DNA of 64,000 nucleotides from Ligustrum vulgare (Eukaryota > Streptophyta > Magnoliopsida > Lamiales > Oleaceae): positions 12,747,501 to 12,811,500 of the forward strand of contig OY743190.1 of the NCBI GenBank assembly GCA_963555705.1, read 5' to 3'. The notes under the pieces are model-generated. The model was not told the origin of the DNA and ran no database searches. It worked only from the letters and a program-made list of their open reading frames with translations. A program made the translations under genes and the position numbers. Below are positions 7,537-58,962 of this stretch, piece by piece. Within the stretch, counting starts at the first letter, position 1; each line of letters opens with the position of its first letter.

Positions 7537-7555
7537 ATTAATACACTTCCGCACA

Positions 7556-7795
7556 ATGTATAACAATTAATTTGTGTACTAGTGTTCTCCATAACTATGA
7601 TGGCAATTTGCATAGTGTATGATGAATGTACGTAAATTATTTTCATAATTTTGTTTTGTTTCAAGATATTTTTGCTCCATATTTAAAGTACAATAAGGAT
7701 TTCCCCAAAATTTCTTTGAGTCAATTCTTTCTTTGTACCATAAAAATGCTTCGTACTGAAAGGTAAACAATTTGTGAAGTGCATAGCAAGTATTC
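7556..7795 (-). repeat. Second copy of the viral leader-ORF segment
   Basis: About 240 bp matching 12647-12885 in the same orientation, with only a handful of differences, including one T more in a T run. It lies between the inversion palindrome and the transactivator stub. It therefore represents viral genome start sequence joined out of order to the end of the polymerase/transactivator region. Confidence 0.9.
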
Positions 7796-7849
7796 TTTTG
7801 TTTCAATTTCTGTCTCAATGTCTTCTATTTGTTCCTTGATGTCAGTCAT
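7796..7849 (-). pseudogene. Transactivator 5' stub
   Basis: An 18-codon start (MTDIKEQIEDIETEIETK) whose ATG overlaps the polymerase stop by 8 bases, as expected for the next caulimovirid gene. It ends abruptly where the duplicated leader segment begins. The rest of this gene is most probably the plus-strand ORF beginning near 5088. The split marks a rearrangement breakpoint. Confidence 0.6.
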
Positions 7850-9854: not shown

Positions 9855-11156
9855 CCTCTGAAAATTCTGTTTCAGATGACTCAGATTCAGTTTCACTTGT
9901 TAAGTAATACAGGGATTCTGTATCACTAGGATCTTCTACTGGGTAGAAGCCTTGTTTTTGAAATGTATTTAGGAGTTTAATCCTGTCTTCATTTCCGATT
10001 TTTGCTGGGCATTCGTTTGCATAATGTCCAGATTCATTGCAAAGCCAACATCTTCAATTCTTTTTCTTTTGAGGACAAAATTTCTTTTTGTCTTGTGTTT
10101 TTTCAAATTTTTTATTCTTATATGGAATTTTCCCCTTTGAATATTTTTTGAAAAATTTCTTTTTCCTAAAAATATTTTCTTTATAAGGTTTTTTGTATTT
10201 TTTAAAAATATATCTTTTATTTCTAAAAGATCTTTTTCTTGTTTTCTTTTGGGTGTTATTGGTTGACAACCATATTGGCTAGGGATTTGGTCAAGGTAAT
10301 TGTTACAACAAATTTTTGGATTTTTGTAAACTGTTTTAACACTTTCTCTTACCAATGTGTTTTGTTTGCATTTTTCAGCAATTAAATTTCTGGTTGTAGT
10401 TATGACTAGTCCAAGGGACATGTCTATTTGAGCATTTACTCTTGGATCAATGATTTCTTTTTGTTTTTTGATTGATTCATCAAAGTCACTCATGACTTCA
10501 TGATTAAATGGTTCTGGTAGTTTACGTATGAATTTTTCTGTTAATTCTATCCATTTGTCGGTGGACATATGTAAAAATATTTTGAAAATTCGCAAGCATA
10601 ATTTTCAAAATAACACATATCACATATAGAGATTTTCTCTAAGTGATTTAATGCATCAACAATTGCAATTACTGATCTCTTACTTTTGAATGCTTCAAAA
10701 GTTTGTCCGGTAAATTGTTTGTATATTTGGTCCACAATTCTTTCAATGAATTTTGGAATGACTCCAATTGAATCTTTCCAGATTTGATTTTTTGTGTCGT
10801 ATGTAAAGCTTTAAAGGAATCTCAAAAGTTTCTGGTTTTGGTTCTCTGATTGTCGGTCCAAGTCCCATGTTAGGATCTGTTTCTCTTCCAGTATGAAATC
10901 TTTCATGAATGATGATTTCATCTTCACTGTCAGATTCTTTATCTGTTTCATATTGTGATTCAGGTTGATTTTGATTCTGTTGTTCATTGTTTTCATTGTC
11001 CGAAATTGTCATAATTTTCTCTTTTATGTCAATATTTTTGACGATTGAAACAATCTTGTCAAGTTCATTGTCTTCAAATGCCAATAAAACATTTAAGAGT
11101 CCCAACTCCTGGCTGGTCTCATAAATGATTTCAAGATTTTTCCTGAAGCTTGTCAT
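9847..11156 (-). pseudogene. Caulimovirid coat protein, frameshifted
   Basis: The N-terminal part (11156-10743) is acidic and ends near a conserved-looking capsid segment. The middle part (10735-10547) reads QIYKQFTGQTFEAF. A frame change leads to a third open part (10595-9969) rich in Lys. The nucleocapsid CCHC knuckle (CWLCNESGHYANEC) is present near 10000-10050 but in another frame, and an acidic Ser-rich tail runs to the stop at 9847, overlapping the polymerase ATG. At least three frame breaks make it non-functional. It starts at a TAATG overlap with the upstream gene. Confidence 0.75.
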
Positions 11157-11446
11157 TATACTAAATGGTCAATATCAAATTTTCCTTCTGGAATTTCATC
11201 TTGTTTTGCTTTTGTTTTTGGAGAGAGTTCTCCCATTCTTTCAAAAATTCCAATTTGTTGTGTTGATTTAATCTTTGAAATTATTTTGTTATTTTGATTA
11301 TTGTTAATAATTCCTGCTATAATGATAGCAGAATGTTTTTCAAGTAAAATTTCAATTTGTTTTTCAAATATGTTAAAATTTCTTTTAATATCTCTGATTT
11401 CTTCTTTTATGGAGTAAATTTCTTTTAGAAGTTCTGGTATTGACAT
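11156..11446 (-). CDS. Small coiled-coil protein, virion-associated-like
   Basis: A 96-codon ORF from an ATG placed two bases after the movement-protein stop (an upstream in-frame ATG at 11512 lies inside that gene). The N-terminal half is a heptad-like helix (LLKEIYSIKEEIRDIKRN...EKQIEILLEK), resembling the coiled coil of caulimovirid virion-associated proteins. The C-terminal half is basic and Asn-rich. Its stop overlaps the coat-protein ATG (TAATG). Function is inferred from position, size and the coiled coil; it could instead correspond to an ORF II-type protein. Confidence 0.55.
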   Translation of the reverse strand: MSIPELLKEIYSIKEEIRDIKRNFNIFEKQIEILLEKHSAIIIAGIINNNQNNKIISKIKSTQQIGIFERMGELSPKTKAKQDEIPEGKFDIDHLV

Positions 11447-11447
11447 T

Positions 11448-12446
11448 TCAATTATCAGATTCTTCTTCTTGATCACCATAAAGTGTTTCGGCCATTTTGT
11501 TGACGGTTTCACTTAATTGTTTGAGTTGTATGTTAGTTTTTCTCAACTCATCGTTTTCTTTTTCTTTCAACTTTGGTGGATTTATTTTATTTTGTGAGTT
11601 ACTTCTTATGAGAAGTGGTTGTTGTTCCCTGATTAGGGGTCTTTTAGTGTTAAGATCTATATTTATAGATCTTCTCTCTGATTGCGTTAACCAGTCAAAT
11701 TCTGTTTCTTTATTTTCTATGTAATTGGAGAATAAAGGATCAATTTTGATTCCTTTTGGTTCTCTTATCATAACCATGTTGTGAGAATTATGGATTGCAT
11801 AACTCACGAGGTATGATATTGAAAAAGGTACATTATTGTCTTTGACTAAGTCTTCCCTTCCGTACTTGTGTACAAACGAGAGTATTCCGTCAAAGTTTTG
11901 ATCATGTAAACTTATTGATAGTCTGGGATAGACTGTAAACAGTAGTTTAGCACATGCTAGGTTTCCTTCAAGGGATCCTAGACATCCTTCTTGTGGGTTT
12001 TGTATTCTTTCATCGATTAAACACATTCGGATTGGTTGATCCGTTTTTTCTAATAGTGTGCTTTTCAATTGGATTCTGATTGCTCCAATTGTAACCCAGT
12101 AAAGATTTTTGTTAACTTCGAGGTCAATTTTTTGTTTTGCTTGGTTTATATCCTTTTTAGTTAGTAGAGAGATTCCTACTTTTCCGTATGTATGTTGAGC
12201 GTTAATCGCAAATTCTTTATGAGATACACCGTAATACACATGTTTCTTTCTTTTCATGAATTTATCAATAAATCCTGGTTGTGAAAAAATTTCTTTTGGA
12301 TCTAAAGATAAAGTGGTTTTACATATTTTGTCAAGTTTTTCGTTAGAAATTAAAATTTCATTTGAAAAATTCCCCTTTGATTCAATTTGTTCGCAAATCT
12401 CCTCATGTTCTTGAGATGTTCCTTCATTAGCAAGATTTATGCTCAT
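11448..12446 (-). CDS. Caulimovirid movement protein (30K superfamily)
   Basis: An uninterrupted 332-codon ORF. The central region carries 30K-type features: a hydrophobic strand with an IDERIQ segment, a GSLEGNLACAKLLFTVYP block, and a C-terminal NSHN motif. This family forms tubules or modifies plasmodesmata so that virus moves between cells. The C-terminal tail is charged, with coiled-coil potential. Its ATG overlaps the stop of the upstream leader ORF (ATGA), fitting the tightly packed polycistronic layout. It is the only large viral ORF on this strand without a visible lesion. Its own promoter is not adjacent. Confidence 0.85.
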   Translation of the reverse strand: MSINLANEGTSQEHEEICEQIESKGNFSNEILISNEKLDKICKTTLSLDPKEIFSQPGFIDKFMKRKKHVYYGVSHKEFAINAQHTYGKVGISLLTKKDINQAKQKIDLEVNKNLYWVTIGAIRIQLKSTLLEKTDQPIRMCLIDERIQNPQEGCLGSLEGNLACAKLLFTVYPRLSISLHDQNFDGILSFVHKYGREDLVKDNNVPFSISYLVSYAIHNSHNMVMIREPKGIKIDPLFSNYIENKETEFDWLTQSERRSINIDLNTKRPLIREQQPLLIRSNSQNKINPPKLKEKENDELRKTNIQLKQLSETVNKMAETLYGDQEEESDN

Positions 12447-12859
12447 GATTTGTAATGTTGTGTGACGTAGTGAATTAAAAAATTAGAAACAGATTCGTAA
12501 TAATTTTGTAAAGCTTTATCTTTTTGTTGTCTACAGTTTTCTAAAGAGTCTTTGTGGACTCCTGCAAAAACTTGGTGTCTATAAAATTCTTCATAAAATT
12601 CGCAAATATGAAATTCAGAATTTATGAGATGAATATGTGCATGACATGTATAACAATTAATTTGTGTACTAGTGTTCTCCATAACTATGGTGGCAATTTG
12701 CATAGTGTATGATGAATGTACGTAAATTATTTTCATAATCTTGTTTTGTTTCAAGATATTTTGCTCCATATTTAAAGTACAATAAGGATTTCCCCAAAAT
12801 TTCTTTGAGTCAATTCTTTCTTTGTACCATAAAAATGATTCGTACTGAAAGGTAAACAA
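12443..12859 (-). CDS. Leader ORF upstream of the movement protein, unknown function
   Basis: A 138-codon ORF between the primer site and the movement-protein gene. It has aromatic-rich N-terminal sequence (FQYESFLWYKERIDSKKFW) and a middle Cys/His cluster (CYTCHAHIH...HICEF). The N-terminal half also occurs in the duplicated segment at 7556-7795, where one extra T puts the downstream part in a different frame, so the reading frame of one copy is shifted. Small ORFs in this position are common in caulimovirids, but I recognise no family. Confidence 0.5.
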   Translation of the reverse strand: MFTFQYESFLWYKERIDSKKFWGNPYCTLNMEQNILKQNKIMKIIYVHSSYTMQIATIVMENTSTQINCYTCHAHIHLINSEFHICEFYEEFYRHQVFAGVHKDSLENCRQQKDKALQNYYESVSNFLIHYVTQHYKS

Positions 12860-12885
12860 TTTGTGAAGTGCATAGCAAGTATTAC
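12647..12885 (-). repeat. First copy of the viral leader-ORF segment
   Basis: Partner of 7556-7795. Here it is in its normal genomic position directly beside the primer site. The low divergence suggests that both copies entered together or from closely related genomes. Confidence 0.9.
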
Positions 12886-12922
12886 AATTATTGCTTGATT
12901 GTGACAGGTTAATATGTGTGAA

Positions 12923-12935
12923 GGCTCTGATACCA
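12923..12935 (-). other. Viral primer-binding site (tRNA-Met)
   Basis: On the minus strand TGGTATCAGAGCC matches the 3' end of initiator tRNA-Met, the minus-strand DNA primer of caulimovirids. It lies upstream of the leader ORF, as expected for position 1 of such a genome. Confidence 0.85.
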
Positions 12936-12949
12936 ATTTGAGGAAGGTG

Positions 12950-13004
12950 TGTGTGGAAGTGTATTAATCAAGACATGTGATCTCATGCTTGATTAATACA
13001 CTTC
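12950..13004. repeat. Viral leader inverted repeat
   Basis: Arms of about 18 bases (GGAAGTGTATTAATCAAG and its complement) surround a 15-base centre. This is the same hairpin that forms the core of the 7434-7536 palindrome. It stands just upstream of the primer site in viral orientation. Confidence 0.85.
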
Positions 13005-13009
13005 CTCAA

Positions 13010-17501: not shown

Positions 17502-17711
17502 TGTTGTAAAACAATAGAGAATATAGAGAGAATCAGAGAGAATTTCTTATTCTTAATATTTCATAATGAATATAGGCCCCTATTTATAGGGGTGGACAAT
17601 GGCATAATCGTAATATTGGACAATGGCATAATCGTAATATATAAATTTTACAGGGGCATAAGAGTAATTTTCATTCAAATATCTTACCTAATTTTGCCTA
17701 ATTTTATAACA
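17502..17711 (-). repeat. 3' LTR of element A
   Basis: Starts TGTTGTAAAAC and ends TTATAACA on plus. In element orientation it contains a TATAAATA box (complement of 17579-17590). Its pair is at 23162-23371. Confidence 0.9.
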
Positions 17712-17751
17712 CTCCCCCTTGAATGAAATATTACTCGCTTGCTCAATTGTC

Positions 17752-18426
17752 TGCCTCGTTAAAACCTTGCTAAGAAAACCCAGTGGGATAAAACTTGAGC
17801 GAAGGAAAAAGAGTACAAAAGCTCCCCCTGATGTTGGACATAGTGAATCATTGAGTCTGACGTTCGAGTAGAACAAATCATGTACTGAATCTTGAATTTC
17901 TGAAGTGCTGCCTCATTAAAACCTTGTCAGTAAAACCCAGTGGGATAAAATCTGAATCAAGGAAAAAGAGTACAGCCGCTGCCTCGTTAAAACCTTGTCA
18001 GGAAAACCTAGTAGGATAAAACCTGGACGAAGGAAAAAGAGTACAGCATGATTCTCCCCCTGAAGTGTGCAATTGAGGATTCATGAACTTCTCGAATATT
18101 GATATCATCTTTCGTCTGGAATATATATGAAAATCTTCTTGTGTGTAGCCGATATCATAACATTCTTCATAAGATGTGTATGATTTTCTTCATTTGTTGA
18201 TATCATTCCAGTATAACAATGTGTTGTTAATTATAGCTTGTTGATAGCTATGATGATGCCTCAAAAACCTTTGCTAGGAAAACTCTGTGGGACAAAACCT
18301 CAGCAAAGGAAAAAGAGTACATTATTCTCATTAATTCTTATCAATACGCCTCAACTGTTGCCTCATTAAAAACCTTGCTAGGAAAACCCTGTGGGAAAAA
18401 CCTCAGCTAAGGAAAAAAGAGTGCAA
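17752..18426 (-). repeat. Five dispersed copies of a ~65-bp motif in element A
   Basis: Copies at about 17752-17818, 17908-17974, 17979-18045, 18257-18321 and 18359-18426. Each begins TGCCTCATTAAAACCTTG, continues through AAAACCCAGTGGGA and ends GGAAAAAGAGTACA. I recognise this motif from the 3' region of plant copia elements. Two copies are nearly adjacent and the others are 110-215 bp apart. Confidence 0.85.
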
Positions 18427-20361
18427 CGCGTATTTATTCCTTTTCATGGAATATCACAAGTATATTGATGCAATCTCATATATTTTCATCAAAACATATC
18501 ATTCATGATGAGCTTTATATAAATCGTTCATAGCTCATTTATGATGTCATAGTTTATTTATGATGTACTGAACATGCTATACCAAGCAATGTTTATTTAG
18601 TTGAGTGATTGCATTACTCAAATCTAGAATTGATTCACTTCTATCAAAATCTAGAATTCACATCTGATGAATAATTAAATATTCATTTTCATATTCACTT
18701 CTGGTGAATAATCAATTTCCGGTGGATAATATAATTTTGCATATTGAAAATCAATTGCATGCCCAAATATTCAATAATAATAGTACACTCCAATTTCAAT
18801 TTCAACATATTATATTATGGGGTCATTTGTATCATCCTATAGTGATACTAATCTGGGCATGTTGAATCTTTCAATGATTTATACATGTATGTTCTTGCAC
18901 TTTATAAACTGCAATTTCTAATTTGCAGGAGCATAATCAATCATTGAAATAGATATCAATTTTGACATATAATCTACAATCATTTTACTTGAAATCCCAA
19001 CGTACCGCGATCAACTGGTACATCAAAGAATACCCTCAAAATACCGAGATGAGAATCACACTTTTTGATCTCACTCATTGGTTTATCAAAGAGCTCAAGC
19101 TAGTGATTTAGATTATAGTCACATCCACCATATGTCATGCCAGTTCAATGAAAAATCTTGCGCGCAACAAGTCGTCATCTACGACTGTGAAATATTTTTC
19201 ATTTGCACCTATAATTACTGGCTTTACACATTTAAGCATTTGGACTTCTGGTCCTTGAATAATAATCCCTACGTTTGGAATTTTATACTTGGCCAAAGTA
19301 TTATAATTTCATCAACCTCATTTTCATAAGAGGGTTGTATGTATTCGACTTATTTATCGATTCCATTTCAACTCAATATAACATAGAGAGATCTCTGTAT
19401 ATGTTCTATCATCAGGTACCTGAATATCTCATCATTATGTCCCTTTTACTCACCATGAGTATTTAGCCTCAAAGGGATCATTTCAATCATTCAAGAGATA
19501 TTTATTTTGGAATCGATAGTCATTATGCTTCAGGCATAATTACGCTTTAAGCGTGTTTTCCCCATAATATTCACAAATCTTATATTATATCAATCGGCTA
19601 AAATGCCGCAACACATGTCATACAATCATATATCAAGTGCGTATTGTTGGAGTGTATATAGATATCGCACTTCTTAGAAATCATAAAGTTTCACAAGCAA
19701 ATCATTATTTCATCGTATTGACATGTTTATATGTAGAATATTGCTGCATAATCAAATTGTTCTCATAGCAAATAACTTGAGGCTTTTAATCTGCTAAACC
19801 ATTAGCAATATAATATTCTATTATCTCAACTAATTCGTAAAATCATTAATAACTTTAAGATATATTCATGCTAGCATTTATCACTTTGCTCGTAATATCA
19901 TTACTTGAGCAAATAATCAGTCATTCATTTAGTGAGATAATTAATTTGCTTTTGAGAACAAGCAGCAATGATAACAATCTTCTGGTTCTTTAATGAATGC
20001 CATTATTCATTCTCAATAAATCTCATTATTGAATTGGAATCTAACCAATCATAATAGAACTTCTGGTTCAACAAGATATTTCACTTGTACATATGTATGA
20101 ACTTCTGGTTCAATACAGTATTCATTTCATCAGTACGTATTTCTGTACAGTTCAAATCAGCATACCTTTATTTCTTTTATACCGGAAAAATCAGGTACAA
20201 TATCCAAGGAAAATATCTCAATCTTGTCGCCAAATCTTCCCTTATATCGAAAAAGGTAATGACGCATTATCTCACCTTTTCAATAATTTATTCCATTATT
20301 TCTTGATGGAATCGATATCACTGACACGCGGAGCCATCGCTCTTTCACGCGTTGAATAATG

Positions 20362-20373
20362 CATTTAAATAGA
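20362..20373 (+). promoter_or_regulatory. TATA-like box of cassette gene 1 in element A
   Basis: CATTTAAATAGA lies about 35-40 bases upstream of the ATG at 20405 and occupies the same place as the TTTAAATAG box in the B copy. Upstream both copies share a CACGCGG motif. Promoter activity is inferred. Confidence 0.45.
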
Positions 20374-20404
20374 TGATTTGGGAAGAAGGCTAGATCCATC
20401 AAAA

Positions 20405-20950
20405 ATGGATATCATACTTTCAAATATTCGCAAATATTATTCCAATCTTCCAGTAAATGATTTGAGAAAAATTTATCGAATTAGGTTCGAAAGATTGAGG
20501 TTGCTGATGGATCATGGCATCCCAGAAGATGTTCGTTGGTTGATCGATGCGAAAGTTCGATTAGCTGGTGAATTACCAGATTCATTTCCTAAGCACAAGC
20601 CTGGCTTAGGTAAGAGTACTTTTGCAAAGAAGCGAAGAGCAAAAAGATTAAATAGTTGCTACAAATGTACTCGATGGACATGTGATACCCGTTGTAAGTC
20701 AATAGGGTATTCATCTATAAATCGAGATGATAAGATAGACTTTATTAAGGGTGGGCTGAGTAAGGAGTCATTGGATGATATCCGATTGACTCTTGAGACG
20801 CACCCTAGTGGGTATGTGCAGCATGAGCTACTATCTTTATGGGCAAAATTCATCGGTGATAAAGAGCGTTATAGTCTCAAAAATATAATAGCAAAAGATC
20901 CTGTTTGCCAGACTGTTATAAACAATGATGTTTTGGCTATGCAGCATTAA
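20405..20950 (+). CDS. Basic Cys-cluster protein, flexivirus NABP-like (cassette A copy)
   Basis: 181 codons from the ATG that aligns with the B copy; an in-frame ATG nine codons upstream falls beside the TATA-like box and is unlikely to be used. The N-terminal third is helical and hydrophobic/charged (IRKYYSNLP...RFERLRLLMDHG). A basic block (FAKKRRAKRL) is followed by CYKCTRWTCDTRC (C-x2-C-x4-C-x3-C), then a DDKIDFIKGGLS segment and an acidic helix. The basic-plus-Cys block followed by an FI/FV-K-G segment resembles nucleic-acid-binding proteins of vitivirus/carlavirus type; this is pattern recognition only. About 80% identical to the 41693-42244 product. The gene is antisense to its host retroelement. 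Confidence 0.6.
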   Translation: MDIILSNIRKYYSNLPVNDLRKIYRIRFERLRLLMDHGIPEDVRWLIDAKVRLAGELPDSFPKHKPGLGKSTFAKKRRAKRLNSCYKCTRWTCDTRCKSIGYSSINRDDKIDFIKGGLSKESLDDIRLTLETHPSGYVQHELLSLWAKFIGDKERYSLKNIIAKDPVCQTVINNDVLAMQH

Positions 20951-21186
20951 TACAAGGTAAATCATTTGATATATATGCACATATAAAATATTTTTATGTT
21001 TTCTTTCACGAGTTTTGATAAAGGCTGGTTAAAAATATTAAATCACCGAAAGGTTAGTAGGGTGATTCTGTCAAAAGTAAATCTTCACTTTTTCAAAACA
21101 TGAGCAGTAAATAGAGAAGTTTTTCAAGTTTAAAAGCCAATGATTTTCACAGTTTATGCATCCCAAAATACCATGAGATATTTCCT

Positions 21187-21345
21187 AGGAGAATCCTTAT
21201 TTCTGCTCCTACTATCGAGGAACTGCTGGATAAGTTGCAATCATATATTCCAATACAAGATCCAGCAGGAGTAAAGATAGATTGGTCGCAAGGAAGGGGA
21301 ATCAAGAGAAAATGGAGTCCGGTTAATGTAAATTTATCTTTGTGA
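21187..21345 (+). pseudogene. LOG cytokinin-activating enzyme, 3' fragment (cassette A)
   Basis: Encodes only the C-terminal 52 residues of the LOG protein found intact at 42541-43194 (RRILISAPTIEELLDKL and a KIDWSQGRG...KRKWSP tail). Everything from the start codon through the catalytic PGGxGTxxE region has been deleted: the sequence jumps from the leader (about 21165, GCATCCCAAAAT) to the coding region near the equivalent of 43036. It cannot make enzyme. The 3' flank with three hairpins is kept. Confidence 0.85.
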
Positions 21346-21355
21346 ACCCTAGAAT

Positions 21356-21554
21356 AGGTGGTGGTAGAGTACGGAGTATTCTCACTCTTGAGACACACCA
21401 TAAATTTCTAGGATTTTGTTAATGTTTAATCTTGTGTACCTCAAAAATTTAAGGTGGTAGAGTATGGAGTATTTCTTACTCTTGAAACACACCTTTTTCT
21501 TTATTTCCTCAAAAGGTCAGAGGTGGTAGGATACGGCTACTCCCGAAACACATC
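21356..21554 (+). other. Three related hairpins downstream of the LOG fragment
   Basis: Stem-loops at about 21356-21399, 21452-21493 and 21521-21554 share the pattern AGGTGG-TAGAGTA...TACTCT...CACACCT. The outer arms AGGTG/CACCT and the inner arms AGAGTA/TACTCT pair; the third is shortened. They are matched in number and order after the LOG gene of element B. Confidence 0.7.
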
Positions 21555-21974
21555 TCTCATTTTGAGGATCATAAATGTTTCCCCCTTTTGCGTTTTGCAT
21601 GTATGTCTCGTTTATGCTTCTTCAGGAGCAATAATAATATCATTTCAGTATGTTTAGATGATAATTTTTACTTCTTCTGGAGTAAATATGTACTTCTTCT
21701 GGAATACATAAGTGCTCGTGCAAGAACTTTTCCAGACACTTATCATCTAATATTCATCTCATAATACTGAAGAGATTATTTTCACATTAGCCATATCCGA
21801 GCTATCATATGATATTATCTTGTTATACATCAACATTCTCTTGTTGAATAATTTTCATCCACCCATTCAAATTCAGATATTGGTAACTTCTGGTACCATT
21901 GGATGAAATATTTTTATCAACATTTACCAACTTTTTGGTAATGATAACTTCTGGTATCATTTGATGAAGTATCA

Positions 21975-22215
21975 AATAACAATAATATCACCATGTATAT
22001 AGGTTAAACAATAATAATATCACCATGTATATATGTTGACAACATCCTCTAATATGTTAGAATTAACCAACAATTGAGGTGTTTATAAAATATGAAATAT
22101 GAATATATGTAAAGTATTCTATATATTCAATTGCTAAACCAGCCATATAGGCGGTGTCAACATAATGAAATAATTAAACCAGCCATATAGGCGGAATCGA
22201 AATAATGAAATAATT
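21975..22215. repeat. Short tandem duplications in element A
   Basis: Two copies of a ~35-bp unit containing AATAATATCACCATGTATA (21975-22040), and two copies of a ~43-bp unit with AACCAGCCATATAGGCGG (22136-22210). Non-coding interior of element A. Confidence 0.8.
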
Positions 22216-23161
22216 AAACTAATACATAATGAAATAATTACCTTTCATGAGTGAGCGAGTCGTATCTTCAAATCCAGTCAAGGTATTCATAATAGTCCAA
22301 TCCGTTACGATAATGAGTCATCTCCAGTTAAGGTATAAATCCAGTCCATAAAACTCAATCCATCACGGTATGGCAACTATTATGTTACTTTTAAATCTTT
22401 TAATTTATCGTATTGATTACATAGTAGTGTTAAATAATTTAGAATATATATTTTATTAACACTTATCATCATATCATTAATAATGATTAATAAATTTCAT
22501 TAAATCACGATTAATATATTTTATCGTATCATCAAGGACAAAATCGTCCATATTTTAATATATTAATCATATGGATAAATCAAAACCGTCAATAGATTTG
22601 AAATTTAATTTAGAACAAACTTACTTTTGGTCCGAAGTACAAAATCTCGCCGGAATTTCCGTAAAAATATTTTTTACGACGCCGCCACGTTCGACCGCCG
22701 GAAAATATCCAAAACTGCACCAAACAGAAAAGTAAGACCATAGAAAAATAAAAAACATCGAAATGAACAAACTTCATGTTGACGTCGTCGCCGGATTCCC
22801 AGACACGCGCCACCACGCGCCGATTTGACGTCTGCGCGTGGGCTTCACGCGCCGCCGCGCCGGTGACCCCGCCGTCGACACGCGCCGGTGCCGGAGGATT
22901 GTCCCGTCGCCGTCGTCATGGATCTGTTGTCCGATCGTCATTTGGATTTATGGTTTGGCGTGAATTTGCTTTGAAAGTTTCGGTTTTTTCAACTTTTCTT
23001 CTCCGGTCGATATCTTCTGTTTCAGCGGTCGGATTATCTCCAAATTTCAGGCGAGGCTTCTCCTTGACAAATTCGTTCTGATGGCGGTGGCTGATCGTCG
23101 ATCGGATATCTGGATTGACCGGAATCATTCTTTTCAGTTCGAGAGAAAAGTGCTGATAACG

Positions 23162-23371
23162 TGTTGTAAAACAATAGAGAATATAGAGAGAATCAGAGAT
23201 AATTTCTTATTCTTAATATTTCATAATGAATATAGGCCCCTATTTATAGGGTTGGACAATGGAATAATCATAATATTGAACAATGGCATAATCGTAATAT
23301 ATAAATTTTACAGGAGCATAAGAGTAATTTTCATTCAAATATCTTACCTAATTTTGCCTAATTTTATAACA
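23162..23371 (-). repeat. 5' LTR of element A
   Basis: Same length as the left LTR and nearly identical. It lies about 320 bp upstream of the CWC25 start codon, pointing away from that gene. Confidence 0.9.
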
Positions 23372-38926: not shown

Positions 38927-40760
38927 TGTGACGACCCGAATTCTCGACCATTCGAGTGCCACTAAAAGTGACTCATATCATATTATCGAGACTTAAATAG
39001 TAATGTAAAATTATTCAAAAGAATAATTAGAATCCCATAATTCAAATTTTTTTTTTTGAATAAAAATAGAACATAATTTTCTTACATAAAGTTCAACATA
39101 ATTATCTCATCAATCTTAACCACTTTTGCCACTTCCATGTTGACCGCCTCGAACCTTCAATTATCTGAAAATGGTAAATATCGTGGAGTGAGATTTATAA
39201 AATCCCAGTAAGTATACCAAGCATAAATTTTCTTTTGAAAGCATATGGATCATTTTCATCATAACATAGGATATGATCGAAATACTCATAAACATAGGGA
39301 GACACAAGAATTTTACCGAACTTAAATGGCAAGAATTCTTATGTGTAGCGCTACTAAACTCCGGTCCCCTTAGCATAATCATAAACATATCATATGGAAC
39401 CCATAACAATCTTGTGAGATTGATTTCATAGCAATAATCCAAACATTTTCATAAAAACATAAGATATACTTACTTGTCATAAAAACATACTTACTTTTCA
39501 TAAAAACATAAGGTATACTTACTTGTCATAAAAACATACTTACTTTTCATAAAAACATAAGGTGTATTTACTTTTCATAAAAACATACTTACTTTTCATA
39601 AAAACATAAGATATACTTACTTGTCATAAAAACATACTTACTTTTCATAAAAACATAAGGTGTATTTACCTTTCATAAAAACATACTTACTTTTCATAAA
39701 AACATAAGATATACTTACTTTTCATAAAAACATAAGGTGTATTTACCTTTCATAAAAACATACTTACTTTTCATAAAAACATAAGATATACTTACTTGTC
39801 ATAAAAACATACTTACTTTTCATAAAAACATAAGGTGTATTTACCTTTCATAAAAACATACTTACTTTTCATAAAAACATAAGATATACTTACCTTTTAA
39901 AAGATTAAAATGAAGTGTAGTAGTAAATGGACCAAAACTTTCTTGACCACCTTGAATTTCTCTTACTTGTGGATTTTGTCAAGAGATTGGAAATAAGTGT
40001 ATATGTGTAGAGTTGTGTGTAAAAGAGATGGGTTTAAATAGATGTATAAAGTTGGCATATTGTAAACATAATCATTCAATTCTATTAATTTTAACACATC
40101 CTTTTCTTAAAGTAAAGCACCATTCATATACTTTTCCATATTTATACAAATAATATGCTCTTCATGATTATATATAATGGAGTATATAAATCATTCATAT
40201 ACTTTTCCATATTTATACAAATATTATGCTCTTCATGATTACATATAATGGAATCTTATCAATCATTCATATACTTTTCCATATTTATACAAATATTATG
40301 CTCTTCATGATTATATATAATGGAGTATATAATTCATTCATATACTTTTCCATATTTATACAAATATTATGCTCTTCATGATTACATATAATGGAATCTA
40401 TCAACCATTTATATACTTTTCCATATTTATTAAATTAAGATTCTCATAATTATTATATATAATGGAACCTCTCATGCTTGCATATATTTTCTTAATTTAA
40501 ATAATAAAAGTAATTTTTGTATAAATAAATATTGGGATAACATTGAATCAAGTACTTAGACTTAATATACTTTAAATCAAGAGAATGGAGATATTTTTAG
40601 AAATTCGGAATTTAATTTAAAATCGAACGATCTCGATTATTTCTTGACTTGGCTATACGAATACGTCGTGGCGTTAACTTAATAAAAATGGGTGAAATAG
40701 TAGCGACATGATTTTCTATTAAAATAATTATTAATCGCGTAAAAATTCTTGGTCGCTACA
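38927..40760 (-). repeat. 3' LTR of element B
   Basis: Contains two internal tandem arrays. One is a ~24/48-bp unit with CATAAAAACATACTTACTTTT (39440-39900); the other is a ~62-bp unit with TTCATATACTTTTCCATATT and ATGCTCTTCATGATTA (40120-40480). Both recur in the other LTR. Confidence 0.95.
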
Positions 40761-41647
40761 AACTTACCCCCTTAAAATAATTTCGTCCTCGAAATTAATC
40801 TTACTTGATCTTATGATTTCTGAACACTTAATCAGAATCTCTTCTTCTTCTTCTTATGTAGCATCATCGCTACCATATTTAACCCAACCATATTTAACCC
40901 ACTGGACTTTGACTAAATGCATCAATTTGTTTTCTTAAGACATGGACTTTTCTATCAATAATAGACATATGTCTACTCATAAATTCTTCTGAATCAAAAT
41001 GAAAATTCCCAATCGTATGTGATATTTCATCATATCTTGTAGTATTCATGTAACTTGTCATTTATCATCGTATCATGTGACCTCAAATATTCGTATTAAT
41101 ATCTCTAAAATTTCAATAAATCTTTACTAACATATCATACCATAATAATTTGTCATTTCTTCTTATCACCAAATATCCCAAAATAATTAAAACGATTACC
41201 TGAATATTCTCTATGTAATATACCCAAACATGTTATTCACATATCAACATAATCATCAGTTTATCTTTCCAATATTTGTAACCCAAAATTTCTGCAAAAT
41301 TCAATAAACAAATATCTCCCAAATAATTAAAATTCTTAACTCAAATATCATAACATTTCCCGTAAGGTATTCCTTTCACTTGCACAAACTTATTAATCCT
41401 GATTCAATACAGTCCTTATTTCACTTTCACGTATCCCCGTATTATTTCTATACCTTGATTATTATATCAAAATATCAGTACCCAAAATCCAAGAAAATAT
41501 TCCATATCTCAAATCCCGTCATCATCAAATCTTCCTTTTATCAAGAAAGTAAACGGCGTATAAACTCTTGTTCCCTCTTTTCCATTATTCTATTCCGCGC
41601 TTTCTTGCTGGAATCAATATCACGCGGATTCCCTCCGATCCTTAATG

Positions 41648-41658
41648 CTTTTAAATAG
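41648..41658 (+). promoter_or_regulatory. TATA-like box of cassette gene 1 (element B)
   Basis: CTTTTAAATAG, about 35-45 bases before the ATG at 41693. A CACGCGG motif lies about 30 bases upstream of it (also in A). Placement identical to element A supports function; not proven. Confidence 0.5.
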
Positions 41659-41692
41659 TTCATGCTGGGAAGAGGTTAGATCCATCAAAAAC

Positions 41693-42244
41693 ATGGATAT
41701 CATTCTTACAAACATTCGCAAGTATTATTCCAGTCTTCCAATGAATGATCTGATGAAAATTTATCGAATAAGACTCGAAAGATTGAGGTTGCTGATGGCT
41801 CATGGTGTTTCAGAAGATGTTCGCTGGTTGATCGAAGCAAAGGTTCGACTATCTGGTGAATTACCTATGACATTTCCAAAGCACATGCCTGGTTTAGGCA
41901 AAAGCACCTTCGCAAAGAAACGAAGAGCAAAAAGGCTGAATGGTTGCTACAAATGTGCTCGTTGGAACTGTGATACTCGTTGCAAAACAGTAGGATATTC
42001 TTCTACTAATCGGGATGATAAAATCAAATTCATAAAGGGTGGACTGAGTAAGGAGTCTTTGGATGATATTCGACTGACTCTTGAGACGCACCCAAGTGGT
42101 TATGTGCAACGTGAACTTCTCTCCTTATACGCTCAGTTTAACGAGGACAAAAATCGTTATAATCTCCAAAATATAATAGCAAAAGATCCTGTTTGCCAGT
42201 CTGTTTTACAAAATGAGGCTTCTGGCAGTTCAACAATGATATAA
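41693..42244 (+). CDS. Basic Cys-cluster protein, flexivirus NABP-like (cassette B copy)
   Basis: 183 codons. The in-frame ATG at 41645 is rejected because the TATA-like box lies downstream of it and because homology with the A copy begins at MDIIL. Layout: an N-terminal helical region (residues 1-60), GLGKSTFAKKRRAKRL (about 67-82), the Cys cluster CYKCARWNCDTRC (84-96; C-x2-C-x4-C-x3-C), DDKIKFIKGG, and a C-terminal helical part with a conserved IIAKDPVCQ. The basic-plus-Cys arrangement suggests nucleic-acid binding. Resemblance to vitivirus/carlavirus Cys-rich proteins is my pattern match; those are shorter and lack the N-terminal region. An AATAAA follows at 42303. Confidence 0.6.
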   Translation: MDIILTNIRKYYSSLPMNDLMKIYRIRLERLRLLMAHGVSEDVRWLIEAKVRLSGELPMTFPKHMPGLGKSTFAKKRRAKRLNGCYKCARWNCDTRCKTVGYSSTNRDDKIKFIKGGLSKESLDDIRLTLETHPSGYVQRELLSLYAQFNEDKNRYNLQNIIAKDPVCQSVLQNEASGSSTMI

Positions 42245-42456
42245 GGTAAATCTCTTGATACACATTTAAAATATTTTGCTGTTTTCTTTCACGCGTTTTG
42301 GAAATAAAATATATTTTCCTTTCTCGAGTTTTGATAAAGCTGGAAATAAATCACCGAAAGGTGATATCTTTGGTAAAACAGTCAAAAGTTGGCCGATTTT
42401 GACAAAAGTAAATCTTTACTTTTTCATAATCAATCAAAAACAGTAAATTTTTTCGG

Positions 42457-42467
42457 CTTTAAATAGC
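42457..42467 (+). promoter_or_regulatory. TATA-like box of the LOG gene (element B)
   Basis: GCTTTAAATAGCC, about 80 bases upstream of the LOG ATG. It is the same TTTAAATAG core as gene 1, inside a short palindrome (GGCTTTAAATAGCC). In element A the equivalent has decayed to TTTAAAAGCC. A CACGCG motif lies near 42290. Confidence 0.5.
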
Positions 42468-42540
42468 CAAACATATTTCATAGTTCAGGCATCCCAAAAT
42501 CACATCTTCTTCGTAAGTTTTCTCTTCTATACTATCAAAG

Positions 42541-43194
42541 ATGGAAGCACCAAAACTTCGACAGATCAAAACTATTTGTGTATTTTGTGGATCAAAAGTG
42601 GGGAAAGGCTTCAGTTATCTAGAAGCGGCCGTAGATCTTGGAAAGAAACTGGGGGAAAAAGGTATCACTCTTGTGTATGGGGGTGGTAGCAGTGGTCTAA
42701 TGGGTTGTGTTTCCCAATCTGCTCTTGCAGAGAAATCAAAAGTAATCGGTGTCATACCTGTCCCTTTGGTAGATGTTGCAGGCAAAACACGAGGGCATGA
42801 AGTTCAAACATTATCCATCCATGAACGCATAACTTGTATGCTATATGGTTCTGATGCCTTTATAGCCCTGCCCGGAGGTTTTGGTACCTTAGAAGAAATC
42901 TTTAACATTACCTCGTGGGCTCAACTAGATCTCCATACTAAGCCTATTGGGCTTCTGAATGTTAACAATTTCTTTGATGGCTTGTTAACCTTTCTTGATT
43001 ATGCTGTGGAACAGGGATTCATCTCTCCATTTTCCAGAAGGCTCCTTATTTCTGCTCCTACTATTGATGAACTACTGGATAAGCTGCAGTCATATATCTC
43101 AATACAAGATCCAGCAGGGGTTAAGATAGATTGGTCGCAAGGAAGGGGAATCAAACGAAAATGGAGTCCGGTTAATGTAAACTTAACTTTATGA
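42541..43194 (+). CDS. LOG: LONELY GUY-type cytokinin riboside 5'-monophosphate phosphoribohydrolase, intronless
   Basis: 217 codons, complete. LOG enzymes hydrolyse cytokinin riboside monophosphates to free active cytokinin, normally in the cytosol. Diagnostic features: CVFCGSKVGK near residue 11-20, LVYGGGSSGLMG (38-50), an HER Arg at the position of the catalytic Arg (SIHERITCM), and ALPGGFGTLEE (about 109-119) supplying the catalytic Glu. Length is normal for plant LOG proteins. Ordinary plant LOG genes have several introns; this one has none, so it is a reverse-transcribed copy. The C-terminal KRKWSP...NLTL tail resembles the LOGL8/9/10-type ending. It follows gene 1 by 296 bp, same strand, antisense to the retroelement. 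Confidence 0.92.
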   Translation: MEAPKLRQIKTICVFCGSKVGKGFSYLEAAVDLGKKLGEKGITLVYGGGSSGLMGCVSQSALAEKSKVIGVIPVPLVDVAGKTRGHEVQTLSIHERITCMLYGSDAFIALPGGFGTLEEIFNITSWAQLDLHTKPIGLLNVNNFFDGLLTFLDYAVEQGFISPFSRRLLISAPTIDELLDKLQSYISIQDPAGVKIDWSQGRGIKRKWSPVNVNLTL

Positions 43195-43205
43195 ATCTTA
43201 GAATA

Positions 43206-43414
43206 GGTGGGGGTAGAGTACGGAGTATTCTTACTCTCGAGACACCCCTCTAATTTCCTAGGATTTCCTTAATGTTTAAATCTTGTGTGTACCTCAAAGG
43301 TTCCAGGTGGTAGATTACGGAGTATTCTTACTCTCGAAACACACCTCTTTGAAGGTTTCTTTATTTCCTCAAAAGGTCAGAGGTGGTAGGATACGGCTAC
43401 TCTGGAAACACATC
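43206..43414 (+). other. Three related hairpins downstream of LOG (element B)
   Basis: Stem-loops at 43206-43249, 43305-43346 and 43381-43414. Shared pattern: GGTGG-TAGAxTACGGAGTATTCTTACTCTCGA-CACACC, with GGTG/CACC outer and AGAGTA/TACTCT inner pairing; the last is shorter. The element A copy has the same three in the same order, with changes in loops and some stems. Confidence 0.7.
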
Positions 43415-43499
43415 TCTCAATTTGAGGAATTTCCCATGTTGCTTTCTTTTGATTTTGCGTGTTTCATGTATTTCTTTCCAATGTGACTCTTGTGTGTTC

Positions 43500-45472
43500 T
43501 CCTTACGAGAAAATAATAAATATCTCTGTTATCATCTACTAAATCTCGTTTGTGATGTAAATGAATTTGCATGTCTAACCTCAATTCTCTTAGTGATTGC
43601 ATACCATACTATGCTCTTAATTCCAAACGATAAAATTCTAAGCAGAGTTTCCTTTGAAATTTGGACTTATTCAAACCGTAAGCATACTTCATAACTCACA
43701 ATAATAAATAATTCCACATTTGATCACAACGATCTAAAAATTGACCACAATTTCATCAAACTTCAATATCATTAAAAAATATTCCAGAAAATCAATTCAT
43801 AATTCCTCAACATAGAAATTTCAAATCATAGTCGTCAATATCACAATATCACTTCCTTCAATACCTTAATTGGCTCAAAAGATTACTCATACTTATATTT
43901 ATAAGTCATAAATCATATTCCCAAAATTTAATCACAAGGCCAAAGTTCATAATAAATTTCTCTTCAATATAGAGGCATAATTCACTTACTCAACATAATA
44001 TCCATTACTTAATTCCCAATAACCAAATCTTTAAATCTCTAACTTCATAATGCTTCTCATAAAAGTCTCATTAAAATCATATCACTTATAATCTTAACAT
44101 CTCATAAAAATTCATAAAATTGGCTCGCTATTTCTCATTAAATCTAAATGATAGATAATGTGAACATATTTCTAATCATTTCTGTTGACTTCTCATACTT
44201 AATGCCATGTCTAAAATCAATTATGCAAAGTCCATTTAAGGTTTATCATTTCTAAACTCGAGGACAACAATTATTTTGAAAATCATTCTTAAGTCATATT
44301 ATTCCCATTATGCTCAACACCCGTTCTCTTTCTTTCTTTTCTTTCTGAATTTTTTTTTTTTTTTTTTTTTTTTTCAGAATTGAAACTTGAAGAGTGGTAC
44401 CAATAATCATCCACAATTTTTCCTTGCTTTTAAGCAAAGGTAGTGATAAAGGGATAAATTATTGAACCGAAAATTGAAACTTGAAGAGGAAGTACTAATA
44501 ACCATCCACAGTTTTTCCCTTGTTTTTACACAAAGGTAGTGATAAAGGGATAAATTATTGTACGAATTCATTATCAATTTTGTTTGTTTAATATATTATT
44601 CCATATATTTTGGGCAAAAGTTACAACCCAACTTAATTTCTAATTGAGTCAATCTTACTAAGCTTAATATGCACCAAAATTCATATAAATATCCTCTCTG
44701 TCTCATGATTCTACATTGAAAAGAATAAAAAAATTGAGTCTTCTATCAATTTATATCATACTTGACATGTATATTATGTGTAACACATAAAGATTCATAA
44801 CATATGAAGATTTCATACTTAACATGTCTTAATAAAATCGTAAATGACTTGCAAAGCATATAACATACCTGGTTCGAGGAGTCAATACGTGGAGAGTGAC
44901 ATAGTAGAGTGATGAGTTAAAATATTTCATATAATCTTATTTTCCTTTAATCAACAATAATTTAATGTGGTTGTATCCAAATCAACATTTTCTTGAATCA
45001 TAATTCCTAATTAATCACAGTCTTCAAAACAAATCCAATATCGACATAGTAATTATCTCCCCATCAATAATTAATAACTTAACCCAAATAAAATTTATCG
45101 TCAAATCTTATTTTTCCTTTAGTCCCCAAACTTCTAGAAATTTATCAAAGACATTAATATAAACATCATATCACTAACTAATTATATTCCATAAAATTTT
45201 CAGGACATTACAAACTCCCTTACTTAAAATGAATTTTGTCCTTGAAATTCGCACATCAAATTTCATCATGCTTTTCAAAATCATAACCATACTTGACATG
45301 TGAAAATTCAACTTTTTTTTTTTATAATGAATAGTGATTTCGTTCACTGTTCATCATGAATAGCACGTCGTTTTACTGTTCACATGAATAGTGATTTTTT
45401 TTTTTTTTTTAAAGAAATAAAATTTCAAAAATTTACAGAATCGTTTTTAAAACTCTTTGCTCTGATACCAAC
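43500..45472 (-). other. Gene-free interior of element B
   Basis: AT-rich. It contains a ~100-bp duplication with TTGAAACTTGAAGAG...GTAGTGATAAAGGGATAAATTATTG (44375-44575), CATGAATAGTGATTT repeats near 45330-45400, and the primer site at 45459-45470. No gag-like translation seen on minus. Confidence 0.55.
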
Positions 45473-47305
45473 TGTGACGACCCGAATTCTCGACCATTCG
45501 AGTGCCACTAAAAGTGACTCATATCATATTATCGAGACTTAAATAGTAATGTAAAATTATTCAAAAGAATAATTAGAATCCCATAATTCAATTTTTTTTT
45601 TTGAATAAAAATAGAACATAATTTTCTTACATAAAGTTCAACATAATTATCTCATCAATCTTAACCACTTTTGCCACTTCCATGTTGACCGCCTCGAACC
45701 TTCAATTATCTGAAAATGGTAAATATCGTGGAGTGAGATTTATAAAATCCCAGTAAGTATACCAAGCATAAATTTTCTTTTGAAAGCATATGGATCATTT
45801 TCATCATAACATAGGATAGGATCGAAATACTCATAAACATAGGGAGACACAAGAATTTTACCGAACTTAAATGGCAAGAATTCTTATGTGTAGCGCTACT
45901 AAACTCCGGTTCCCTTAGCATAATCATAAACATATCATATGGAACCCATAACAATCTTGTGAGATTGATTTCATAGCAATAATCCAAACATTTTCATAAA
46001 AACATAAGATATACTTACTTGTCATAAAAACATACTTACTTTTCATAAAAACATAAGGTATACTTACTTGTCATAAAAACATACTTACTTTTCATAAAAA
46101 CATAAGGTGTATTTACTTTTCATAAAAACATACTTACTTTTCATAAAAACATAAGATATACTTACTTGTCATAAAAACATACTTACTTTTCATAAAAACA
46201 TAAGGTGTATTTACCTTTCATAAAAACATACTTACTTTTCATAAAAACATAAGATATACTTACTTTTCATAAAAACATAAGGTGTATTTACCTTTCATAA
46301 AAACATACTTACTTTTCATAAAAACATAAGATATACTTACTTGTCATAAAAACATACTTACTTTTCATAAAAACATAAGGTGTATTTACCTTTCATAAAA
46401 ACATACTTACTTTTCATAAAAACATAAGATATACTTACCTTTTAAAAGATTAAAATGAAGTGTAGTAGTAAATGGACCAAAACTTTCTTGACCACCTTGA
46501 ATTTCTCTTACTTGTGGATTTTGTCAAGAGATTGGAAATAAGTGTATATGTGTAGAGTTGTGTGTAAAAGAGATGGGTTTAAATAGATGTATAAAGTTGG
46601 CATATTGTAAACATAATCATTCAATTCTATTAATTTTAACACATCCTTTTCTTAAAGTAAAGCACCATTCATATACTTTTCCATATTTATACAAATAATA
46701 TGCTCTTCATGATTATATATAATGGAGTATATAAATCATTCATATACTTTTCCATATTTATACAAATATTATGCTCTTCATGATTACATATAATGGAGTC
46801 TTATCAATCATTCATATACTTTTCCATATTTATACAAATATTATGCTCTTCATGATTATATATAATGGAGTATATAATTCATTCATATACTTTTCCATAT
46901 TTATACAAATATTATGCTCTTCATGATTACATATAATGGAATCTATCAACCATTTATATACTTTTCCATATTTATTAAATTAAGATTCTCATAATTATTA
47001 TATATAATGGAACCTCTCATGCTTGCATATATTTTCTTAATTTAAATAATAAAAGTAATTTTTGTATAAATAAATATTGGGATAACATTGAATTAAGTAC
47101 TTAGACTTAATATACTTTAAATCAAGAGAATGGAGATATTTTTAGAAATTCGGAATTTAATTTAAAATCGAACGATCTCGATTATTTCTTGACTTGGCTA
47201 TACGAATACGTCGTGGCGTTAACTTAATAAAAATGGGTGAAATAGTAGCGACACGATTTTCTATTAAAATAATTATTAATCGCGTAAAAATTCTTGGTCG
47301 CTACA
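45473..47305 (-). repeat. 5' LTR of element B
   Basis: Nearly identical to 38927-40760, including the tandem arrays (45990-46440 and 46670-47010). It is transcriptionally upstream of the element, which runs leftward. Confidence 0.95.
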
Positions 47306-58271: not shown

Positions 58272-58957
58272 TGTTGAGATTGTACCCAAGAATGTGGCAC
58301 ATTGGGCCACCAATGAAGGCCCAATGAGGGTCCACAAACTTTGGCCCATGATTAGAAGTTCAAGATATCCCCCTGGGCCAATGGCCAAGGTGGAAAAGCA
58401 CACGAGCTCCTCTGGACGAGCTGGTTTGTGTCTGGCAGAGGCGCTTTATGCTTAGCCGAGGTGCTTACGGTAGCGCCTCGGATGTAGGGATGGGACAAGG
58501 GATGAAGTCAGAGATGTGACGCTGCCTTTACCAAGATGTGATAGGCGCTCATCCCCTACGAAATGTAGCAATGATTACTGTCAAAAAGCAAGGTTGTCCC
58601 CTTCAAGAGCTAGGGTGGATACACGTGTAAAAGTCGGCCATGTGTCACAATCCAGGGCAACGAATCCTTCTATAAATAGAGCACACTTGCCTCCAAGGAA
58701 AATGTTAGCAATTTCATACTCTTGACTAAATATATTTCTCTCACTCCCTTTTCTCTCTTTTACGCACTTATATTTCCCGCACTCAAATTATATTTGCTGA
58801 ACATGGGCGCTGACTTTGTCATCGGAGTGCAAACGGGAGCCACCTCGGCCCCCTTTGCAAACTGATTGTTTGTCACAGTGCGCAGGAGATCCACGTGTTC
58901 AAGAGGGAGGAGCTGAGACGTGCTGATCTAAGGTCCAGTCGGATTTTGTGGTCAACA
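58272..58957 (+). repeat. Gypsy 3' LTR
   Basis: Starts TGTTGAGATTGTACCC and ends GTGGTCAACA. It contains CTATAAATAGAGC near 58672. It differs from the split 5' LTR at many sites, roughly 5%, with small indels. Confidence 0.9.
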
Positions 58958-58962
58958 ATTAC

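Follow-up and report, generated by a model that had tools for sequence, protein, structure and literature searches.

Two long terminal repeat (LTR) retrotransposons of Ligustrum vulgare with unrelated LTRs carry the same two-gene cassette on the strand opposite to the element. They lie in a stretch of 64,000 nucleotides (assembly GCA_963555705.1, contig OY743190.1, positions 12,747,501 to 12,811,500 of the forward strand), referred to here as the window, and are called elements A and B. In both, the cassette is one homologous antisense unit consisting of a gene for a cysteine-rich protein related to viral nucleic acid-binding proteins (NABP), a LONELY GUY-like (LOG) gene and three tandem hairpins. 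We consider it fairly probable that both elements bear an accessory module which can be transferred among plant LTR retrotransposons and whose two genes would serve anti-silencing and cytokinin activation.

The two elements and their parts, with their target site duplications (TSDs), are located in the window as follows:

17502-23371, minus strand: element A, an LTR retrotransposon with 210-bp LTRs and the TSD GTCCT on both sides
17502-17711, minus strand: left LTR of A, the 3' LTR in element orientation
23162-23371, minus strand: right LTR of A, the 5' LTR in element orientation
23148-23161, minus strand: primer site of A, just inside the right LTR (..ACA, then CGTTATCAGCAC)
38927-47305, minus strand: element B, an LTR retrotransposon with 1.83-kb LTRs and the TSD TATAT
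38927-40760, minus strand: left LTR of B, the 3' LTR in element orientation
45473-47305, minus strand: right LTR of B, the 5' LTR, with an initiator methionine tRNA (tRNA-iMet) type primer site just inside

A and B are complete LTR elements. Both have the paired LTRs with TG..CA ends and the 5-bp TSD expected of LTR retrotransposons, and in both a primer site adjoins one LTR and a purine tract the other, all on the minus strand (the primer site of B is GTTGGTATCAGAGC). The LTRs of A differ at 6 of 210 sites (97.1% identity) and those of B by 5 substitutions in 1,833 sites (99.7% identity, Kimura two-parameter distance 0.0027); the window copy of B is young. Element coordinates, LTR lengths and primer sites agree with the first-pass annotation of this DNA, which had also called the two LTRs dissimilar. 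No similarity was found between LTR A and LTR B (best blastn E = 0.16), and as they cannot be aligned, the possibility that A and B are diverged members of one LTR family, which the annotation had itself raised, is ruled out. It had also reported neither gag nor pol, and none was found here: all 16 other open reading frames (ORFs) of at least 70 aa, read from stop to stop in both internal regions, were without a Pfam match at E 0.1. A and B are non-autonomous LTR retrotransposons. A 76-bp unit is present in five copies beside the purine tract of A (17751-18434). Element B is nested in a larger gypsy-type element (38475-58960), having inserted into one of its LTRs; the other LTR of that element is at 58321-58960, and its interior has reverse transcriptase (RT) and integrase pieces and a Tat-like primer sequence after 47497.

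The cassettes and their features are:

20079-21568, plus strand, antisense to element A: cassette in A, aligning to B 41374-43428 except for a gap within LOG
41374-43428, plus strand, antisense to element B: cassette in B, aligning to A 20079-21568
20405-20950, plus strand: NABP ORF of A, 181 aa (PF05515 2.7e-8, PF01623 5.7e-5)
41693-42244, plus strand: NABP ORF of B, 183 aa when read from the conserved ATG and 199 aa from an upstream ATG at 41645
42541-43194, plus strand: LOG-like ORF of B, 217 aa (Lysine_decarbox 1.3e-33)
21180-21346, plus strand: 3' remnant of LOG in A, running in frame into the stop that B also uses
20364-20372, plus strand: TATA-like word TTTAAATAG, 41 nt before the ATG of NABP in A
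41650-41658, plus strand: TTTAAATAG, 43 nt before the ATG of NABP in B
42458-42466, plus strand: TTTAAATAG, 83 nt before the ATG of LOG in B
21346-21571, plus strand: three tandem hairpins of A (cores 21360-21401, 21453-21495 and 21522-21556)
43196-43432, plus strand: three tandem hairpins of B (cores 43209-43250, 43306-43347 and 43382-43416)

The first-pass annotation had proposed aligning the two regions, and they proved homologous along some 2 kb of B and 1.5 kb of A: A 20079-21169 matches B 41374-42500 (73%, E 0.0) and A 21180-21568 matches B 43029-43428 (86.5%, E 1.5e-134). Between the remaining parts of A and B nothing aligned at E 0.01, save for short cross-matches among the hairpins. 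A common order of parts had been described for A and B, and this stands for NABP, the TATA-like word before it and the three hairpins. For LOG it needs correcting, since the gene in window A is truncated (the first ~529 bp are gone) and TTTAAATAG is absent before the remnant, which leaves NABP as the only intact gene there. Three sister copies of A were read as well: LOG is intact in L044 (94.0% identical to the B protein), full-length with one in-frame stop at codon 193 in L043 (92.6%) and partial in L042.

The NABP of B matches Viral_NABP (PF05515, 1.2e-7) and Carla_C4 (PF01623, 8.3e-5). The curated cut-offs were passed for both families, with 34.5 and 32.3 bits against 23 for PF05515, and 23.5 and 22.9 bits against 20.9 for PF01623. 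Judged by these domain matches, the Cys-rich ORF is a member of the betaflexivirus-type viral NABP family (PF05515/PF01623). The protein database holds 406 relatives at E 0.01 or better, and among the 120 listed the named ones are from plants only (Orobanche, Populus, Acer and Xanthoceras). A first structural model was poor (predicted local distance difference test, pLDDT, 57.6; its top viral row was the fig latent virus 1 suppressor at E 1.2). A better model from 94 sequences (pLDDT 76.5) gave 37 matches to viral structures at E 10 or better, of which none reached 0.001. In the top 14 rows, 11 bear the name NABP, 15-kDa protein or RNA silencing suppressor and three are unnamed; the viruses behind the 11 named matches are presumably all betaflexiviruses. 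Against the PDB there was one structure match (E 7.9). Among viral contigs, 46 stretches fitted a pattern and none of them encodes a relative; of 45 candidate stretches from bacterial and archaeal contigs one was retained (L001, see below).

The LOG protein of B has 2a33 (At2g37210) as its closest solved structure (4.7e-58), and keeps the PGGxGTxxE motif and the Arg of HxR. It passes the cut-off of TIGR00730 (2.4e-48; 164.2 bits against 96.35) and does not reach that of the NCBI equivalog for cytokinin LOG, NF058542 (109.7 bits against 300). The second ORF is thus predicted to encode a LOG-like (LONELY GUY-like) enzyme, for which cytokinin activation would be the expected role. PGGxGTxxE and the preceding Arg are present in the eight B-type LOGs compared, and also in L043 and L044.

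The cassette is highly repeated in the host assembly (1.385 Gb, 51 contigs). The B NABP gave 8,805 first-look candidates and the A NABP 8,869; the best 150 of each were scored, and as these are the best-scoring copies they are biased towards intact ones. All 150 scored B-type NABPs were at least 99% identical, full length and stop-free. The 150 scored A-type copies were 94-100% identical, four of them with one stop, so that there are at least 150 A-type copies. The exact word across the primer-site/LTR junction of B occurs 2,377 times and the exact LOG active-site word 3,676 times; the reversed control of each occurs 0 times. Spacing between the two words was analysed for the first 100 places of each, all on C1, with 85 B junctions in the first 48.1 Mb. 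At 68 of these 85 junctions the LOG word lies 2,262-2,798 bp away on the same written strand, that is antisense to the element, compared with 1/85 on the opposite strand within 4 kb and 1/85 on the outer side. Fixed spacing and strand rule out a chance or fragment reading of the association between B and LOG. They also rule out a chromosomal gene pair into which LTRs had inserted by chance, a counter-explanation offered by the first-pass annotation, as does the recurrence of the pair in Athila-like elements. Conversely, 32 of the 100 LOG words had no such B junction, which is expected if related families share the LOG word. Series of B-type units head to tail, at about 6.6-6.8 kb spacing and as if LTR-internal units were repeated, were seen at C6:13822851-13836922, C22:1306460-1326777 and C23:10311325-10338627.

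Twenty hand-picked 10-kb host loci were then compared for context. NABP was found in 20/20 and LOG, whole or broken, in 18/20, with constant order and strand. In the B-type loci L021, L022, L035, L036, L037 and L039 an iMet-type primer site lies opposite to the cassette strand; for L020, L023 and L038, also B-type, the junction falls outside the displayed sequence. L035-L039 do not count as a separate transfer, since B and L036 are partly alignable (89% in the internal region, 77-91% in LTR pieces), making these loci a related subfamily of B.

Other loci present the cassette in the opposite relation to the element. L024, L026, L030 and L031 have the primer site TGGCGCCGTTGCCGGGGA after the left LTR and on the cassette strand, and L026, L027 and L030 have a G-rich purine tract before the right LTR. 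In these loci the cassette is in sense. TGGCGCCGTTGCCGGGGA is of the tRNA-Asp type, and the label Athila rests on this primer-site sequence. The YgdH-bearing elements of Citrus and Populus mentioned below are Athila-like too. At L034 an RNase H (2336-2959), an integrase (2963-3790), NABP and a broken LOG follow each other, all in sense, and RNase H before integrase is the gypsy order. The pol of L034 is 69-70% identical to that of L001, and L028 also has a related pol piece. L001 (DAIEQH010000041.1) is a 3.3-kb contig from a Nomurabacteria bin in which a gypsy integrase is followed by NABP in sense, with no LOG in the 1 kb after NABP; it looks like plant DNA contaminating a metagenome bin. L026 and L027 are young Athila-type elements with no pol detected, in which, besides NABP and LOG, a 264-aa ORF near the primer site is kept (L026 6479-7270 minus, L027 2724-3515 plus; no Pfam match, perhaps gag).

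The pair is also found as joined gene models in other plants. An Orobanche protein query returned 140 proteins, and among the 120 listed there are 20 single gene models with both NABP and LOG domains, from O. minor, O. hederae and O. gracilis. Two Citrus gene models join NABP to an SLOG domain. One O. gracilis model (P0256) joins NABP to a copia gag (PF14223) and a zinc knuckle, and the locus tag after it is LOG; this is possibly another LTR lineage with the module, a gene prediction being a hint only.

The orientation of the cassette goes along with a difference in upstream sequence. In the window TTTAAATAG occurs five times, and the two occurrences outside the cassettes are in the LTRs of B. 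Among the loci shown, which are partly near copies so that the counts are not independent events, the word stands shortly upstream of NABP in 7/7 antisense loci and upstream of LOG in 5/6, the exception being L043 with TTTAAAAAG. It was found in 0/6 sense loci in the 110 nt upstream of NABP and in 0/5 upstream of LOG, where four of the five have a T-rich stretch ending in CAG in its place. We infer that sense carriers may use LTR-driven, probably spliced expression and antisense carriers individual promoters.

Phylogenetic trees of NABP and LOG were midpoint-rooted, and the root was not independently fixed. The NABP tree unites the antisense A and B types in a single clade (100/99), which also holds P0001, L032 and L033, and the nine Athila-type NABPs of the host form a clade of their own (100/100); L001 lies outside both under the midpoint root. 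Sense Athila contexts bracket the antisense NABP clade, which favours sense as the older state. The antisense LOGs likewise form one group (99/99, together with the database row P0121) and the Athila-type LOGs another (100/100). AtLOG3, AtLOG8 and two bacterial LOGs are separated from the element LOG groups by a strongly supported branch. LOGs from Populus, Reevesia and other database entries that may be element-borne also lie across that branch, and a single capture of LOG by elements is therefore not established.

Pairwise ratios of nonsynonymous to synonymous substitution rates (dN/dS) were low between the antisense types. For NABP they were 0.17 (B/A), 0.14 (B/L043), 0.17 (B/L044) and 0.34 (B/L035), and for LOG 0.025 (B/L035), 0.058 (B/L044), 0.073 (B/L043) and 0.126 (L043/L044). 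Between A and B types dS was 0.61-0.75 for NABP and 0.47-0.55 for LOG. Low ratios at such distances suggest that both genes have long been constrained in separate families. Against the Athila type (L026), with dS near saturation, the ratios were 0.15 for NABP and 0.21 for LOG. Among Athila-type copies, which differ by few changes, NABP gave 3.2 and 0.42. The antisense cassette is therefore under purifying selection, and the Athila LOG of the host looks relaxed.

The hairpins extend the likeness between sense and antisense carriers. The word ACTCTTGAGACRCACC, allowing up to 3 mismatches, occurs 7 times in the window against 0.29 expected, with two occurrences in NABP and five in the tails. When a covariance model was built solely from the six tail hairpins of the window, it detected hairpins on the cassette strand downstream of LOG in L024-L028, L030, L031 and L034 (E 2e-5 to 0.03), and in L029 (E 0.09). 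Covariation was tested on 21 distinct sequences with 500 shuffles, on an alignment fitted to the model. Pairing held in 93.7% of cells against 89.3% when shuffled, and the covariation score was 0.219 against 0.125, both values being reached by 0/500 shuffles. Double changes are seen in three outer pairs (GC to AU twice, and UA to GC), and the hairpins thus seem to carry compensatory changes. RNAalifold predicted only the four outer pairs from the same alignment, the sequence of the internal loop is nearly fixed, and single-sequence folding was not always better than that of shuffles (z -0.9 to -3.4). Rfam gave no match in the window at gathering cut-offs. The same model also pointed to a possible further copy of the motif inside NABP:

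20750-20806, plus strand: hairpin motif within the NABP ORF of A, a weak covariance-model match (E 0.11)
42038-42094, plus strand: hairpin motif within the NABP ORF of B, a weak covariance-model match (E 0.25)

Several observations weigh against a transferable module with two working genes and a hairpin mark. The exact LOG word was missing at the expected place at 17 of the 85 B junctions, L032 and L033 have NABP without LOG, and LOG is intact in only one of the four A-family copies read. In all six Athila-type LOGs of the host the Arg is lost and PGD replaces PGG, and the motif is lost in two of the three Orobanche LOGs shown. The Lys that follows the catalytic-type Arg in four reference LOGs (including AtLOG3 and AtLOG8) is replaced in 16/16 host LOGs; the same holds for 18 of the 20 database LOGs shown, the two that retain it being from Xanthoceras. 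The substrate of LOG may therefore have changed. LOG dN/dS among the Athila-type copies was 0.85, 0.88 and 2.2 (on few changes, one pair with a C-terminal frameshift), and as the trees are midpoint-rooted, the direction from Athila to A and B is presumed. For NABP the best viral structure match reached E 0.036, with low template modelling scores. For the NABP-internal hairpin the covariance model gave weak matches, with E 0.1-2 for A, for B and for nine loci and E 5.7 for both L029 and L031, and it found none in L001; an unrelated site in the window scored in the same range (E 2.1), and synonymous sites were not significantly more conserved there (p 0.12-0.40). In the tail hairpins the count of double-changed pairs was not significant (49/500 shuffles reach the same), and among the slid controls, which pair 34-68% of cells, a slide of +2 scored a higher covariation (0.245).

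Some of these points would fit a passenger cassette, in which a single capture of NABP and LOG was followed by copying together with successful LTRs; the two genes would be of no use to the element, and the intact ORFs would reflect no more than very recent amplification. The near-identity of the B copies, the youth of window B, the broken LOG in three of the four A-family copies and the seemingly relaxed Athila LOGs are all as this would have it. It is harder to reconcile with dN/dS of 0.058-0.073 for LOG and 0.14-0.17 for NABP across the A/B distance, and with the retention of the cassette where gag and pol were not found, and we regard it as unlikely.

A second alternative gives the cassette a role in packaging, with NABP as an RNA chaperone that binds hairpins in the element RNA and substitutes for a nucleocapsid, and LOG as incidental. 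NABP does belong to a viral nucleic acid-binding family, and the hairpins are conserved and lie in the sense RNA of the Athila-type elements. The LTR-driven RNA of A and B, however, bears only the reverse complement of the hairpins, so that the conserved sequence can act only in cassette-strand RNA; this counts against a packaging signal and for control of the cassette mRNA, possibly by NABP. Moreover, both between A and B and between B and L035, the constraint on LOG is no weaker than that on NABP. A packaging module is in our view quite unlikely.

SLOG proteins handle nucleotide signals. The LOG-like enzyme could accordingly hydrolyse ribosyl-nucleotide signals other than cytokinin, such as TIR-derived adenine nucleotides, and act with NABP against defence and not on growth. 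This would agree with the changed residue after the catalytic-type Arg and with the score of the B protein below the cytokinin LOG equivalog cut-off. The antisense type nevertheless keeps PGGxGTxxE and an overall likeness to plant LOGs, and such an immune-signal sink seems very unlikely. The first-pass annotation had left open whether the cassette moved between element types or was captured twice; transfer is favoured, and independent capture of a normal host NABP-LOG pair by A and B is highly improbable, since LOG is indeed a normal plant gene family but for each of the two genes A and B fall into one group, their cassettes share a tail of three hairpins and the TATA word ahead of NABP, and the pair is seen again in Athila-like elements and, repeatedly, in gene models of other plants.

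Under the transferable-module reading, the ancestral-type state would be NABP, LOG and hairpins in sense behind the pol position of Athila-like gypsy elements. In this plant lineage two or more LTR families that are unrelated in their LTRs would have received the module, and in them it came to lie antisense, with a TATA-type word before its genes and no recognisable gag or pol, and these carriers would have multiplied, presumably moved by the proteins of other elements. NABP, as a relative of carlavirus-type nuclear activators and suppressors, might ease host silencing or reprogramme transcription where a copy is active. LOG might raise local active cytokinin so that cells keep dividing, and the hairpins in the cassette mRNAs might serve regulation, perhaps as a binding site of NABP itself. 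The effect of NABP or that of LOG could improve the odds of new copies in dividing meristem cells and hence in the germ line, a presumed benefit to the mobile element. Geminiviruses raise active cytokinin by another route (PMC8062710). In its strongest form the module would drive meristem cells: families without gag and pol would persist as active copies supply their own cell lineage with a suppressor or activator and a cytokinin enzyme, cells with new insertions would be favoured in meristem and germ line, the cassette would pass between unrelated families, and its mRNAs would be hairpin-marked for recognition by NABP. We offer this combination tentatively, as doubtful in its entirety.

Parts of this arrangement have precedents. 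YgdH/LOG-like extra ORFs are described for Citrus and Populus gypsy elements (PMC9289625, citing Steinbauerova et al., 2011), and the Citrus and Populus protein matches above are probably the same elements. Like the elements studied here, those carry a LOG-family domain as an additional ORF, but the sections of PMC9289625 available name the YgdH domain alone and do not mention an NABP, a hairpin array, transfer between unrelated LTRs or antisense cargo-only families. The suggestion of a new kind of cargo in the first-pass annotation thus fails for LOG, already in print, and may hold for the NABP partner, the hairpins and the sharing across LTR families, which we did not find in print. Grande, RIRE2 and Retand also have genes antisense to the element, with an own promoter in Grande, but according to PMC7264820 their antisense ORFs are located after pol and before the 3' LTR, and they do not clearly resemble any proteins in the databases. 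A and B differ from these in that gag and pol were not found, in their two recognisable genes with TATA words and in a module common to several LTR families. In bdelloid rotifers one accessory ORF (ORF3 types) occurs in unrelated retroelement lineages, as here; PMC5408684 describes these as GDSL esterase and DEDDy exonuclease, in elements of another kingdom with gag and pol present. For chrysanthemum virus B p12, a betaflexivirus Cys-rich NABP, silencing relief or transcriptional activation is reported (PMC7588395). Such betaflexivirus NABPs or suppressors share PF05515 and PF01623 with the protein described here, and its best viral structure matches carry their names. Unlike the viral proteins, the NABP here is encoded in a plant genome, repeated and paired with LOG, and it is longer (181-199 aa against 77-135 aa in the 11 named viral proteins, two of which are fragments). 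A survey of plant LTR elements counted extra ORFs only from 250 codons (PMC6317226), and by that minimum the NABP and LOG described here would be passed over. In the open-access literature we found nothing on an NABP-LOG-hairpin module, an NABP partner, antisense relocation or cargo-only amplification.

Elsewhere in the window (5027-12769) there are Caulimoviridae-like endogenous pararetrovirus remnants, with repeats around 7434-7794 and 12646-13008 and with a transactivator-type domain (Cauli_VI), an A3 peptidase with RT and a movement protein in separate ORFs.

If the transferable-module reading is true, plant LTR retrotransposons exchange a functional two-gene module akin to a plant-virus toolkit, a silencing suppressor together with cytokinin up-regulation. 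This would also connect a family of viral suppressors with a large group of proteins (the 406 database proteins noted above). Elements without recognisable mobilisation genes would then keep this module under purifying selection and reach thousands of copies. This would open a tractable way to ask why non-autonomous elements are successful, and whether mobile elements manipulate the growth of their host so as to reach the germ line.

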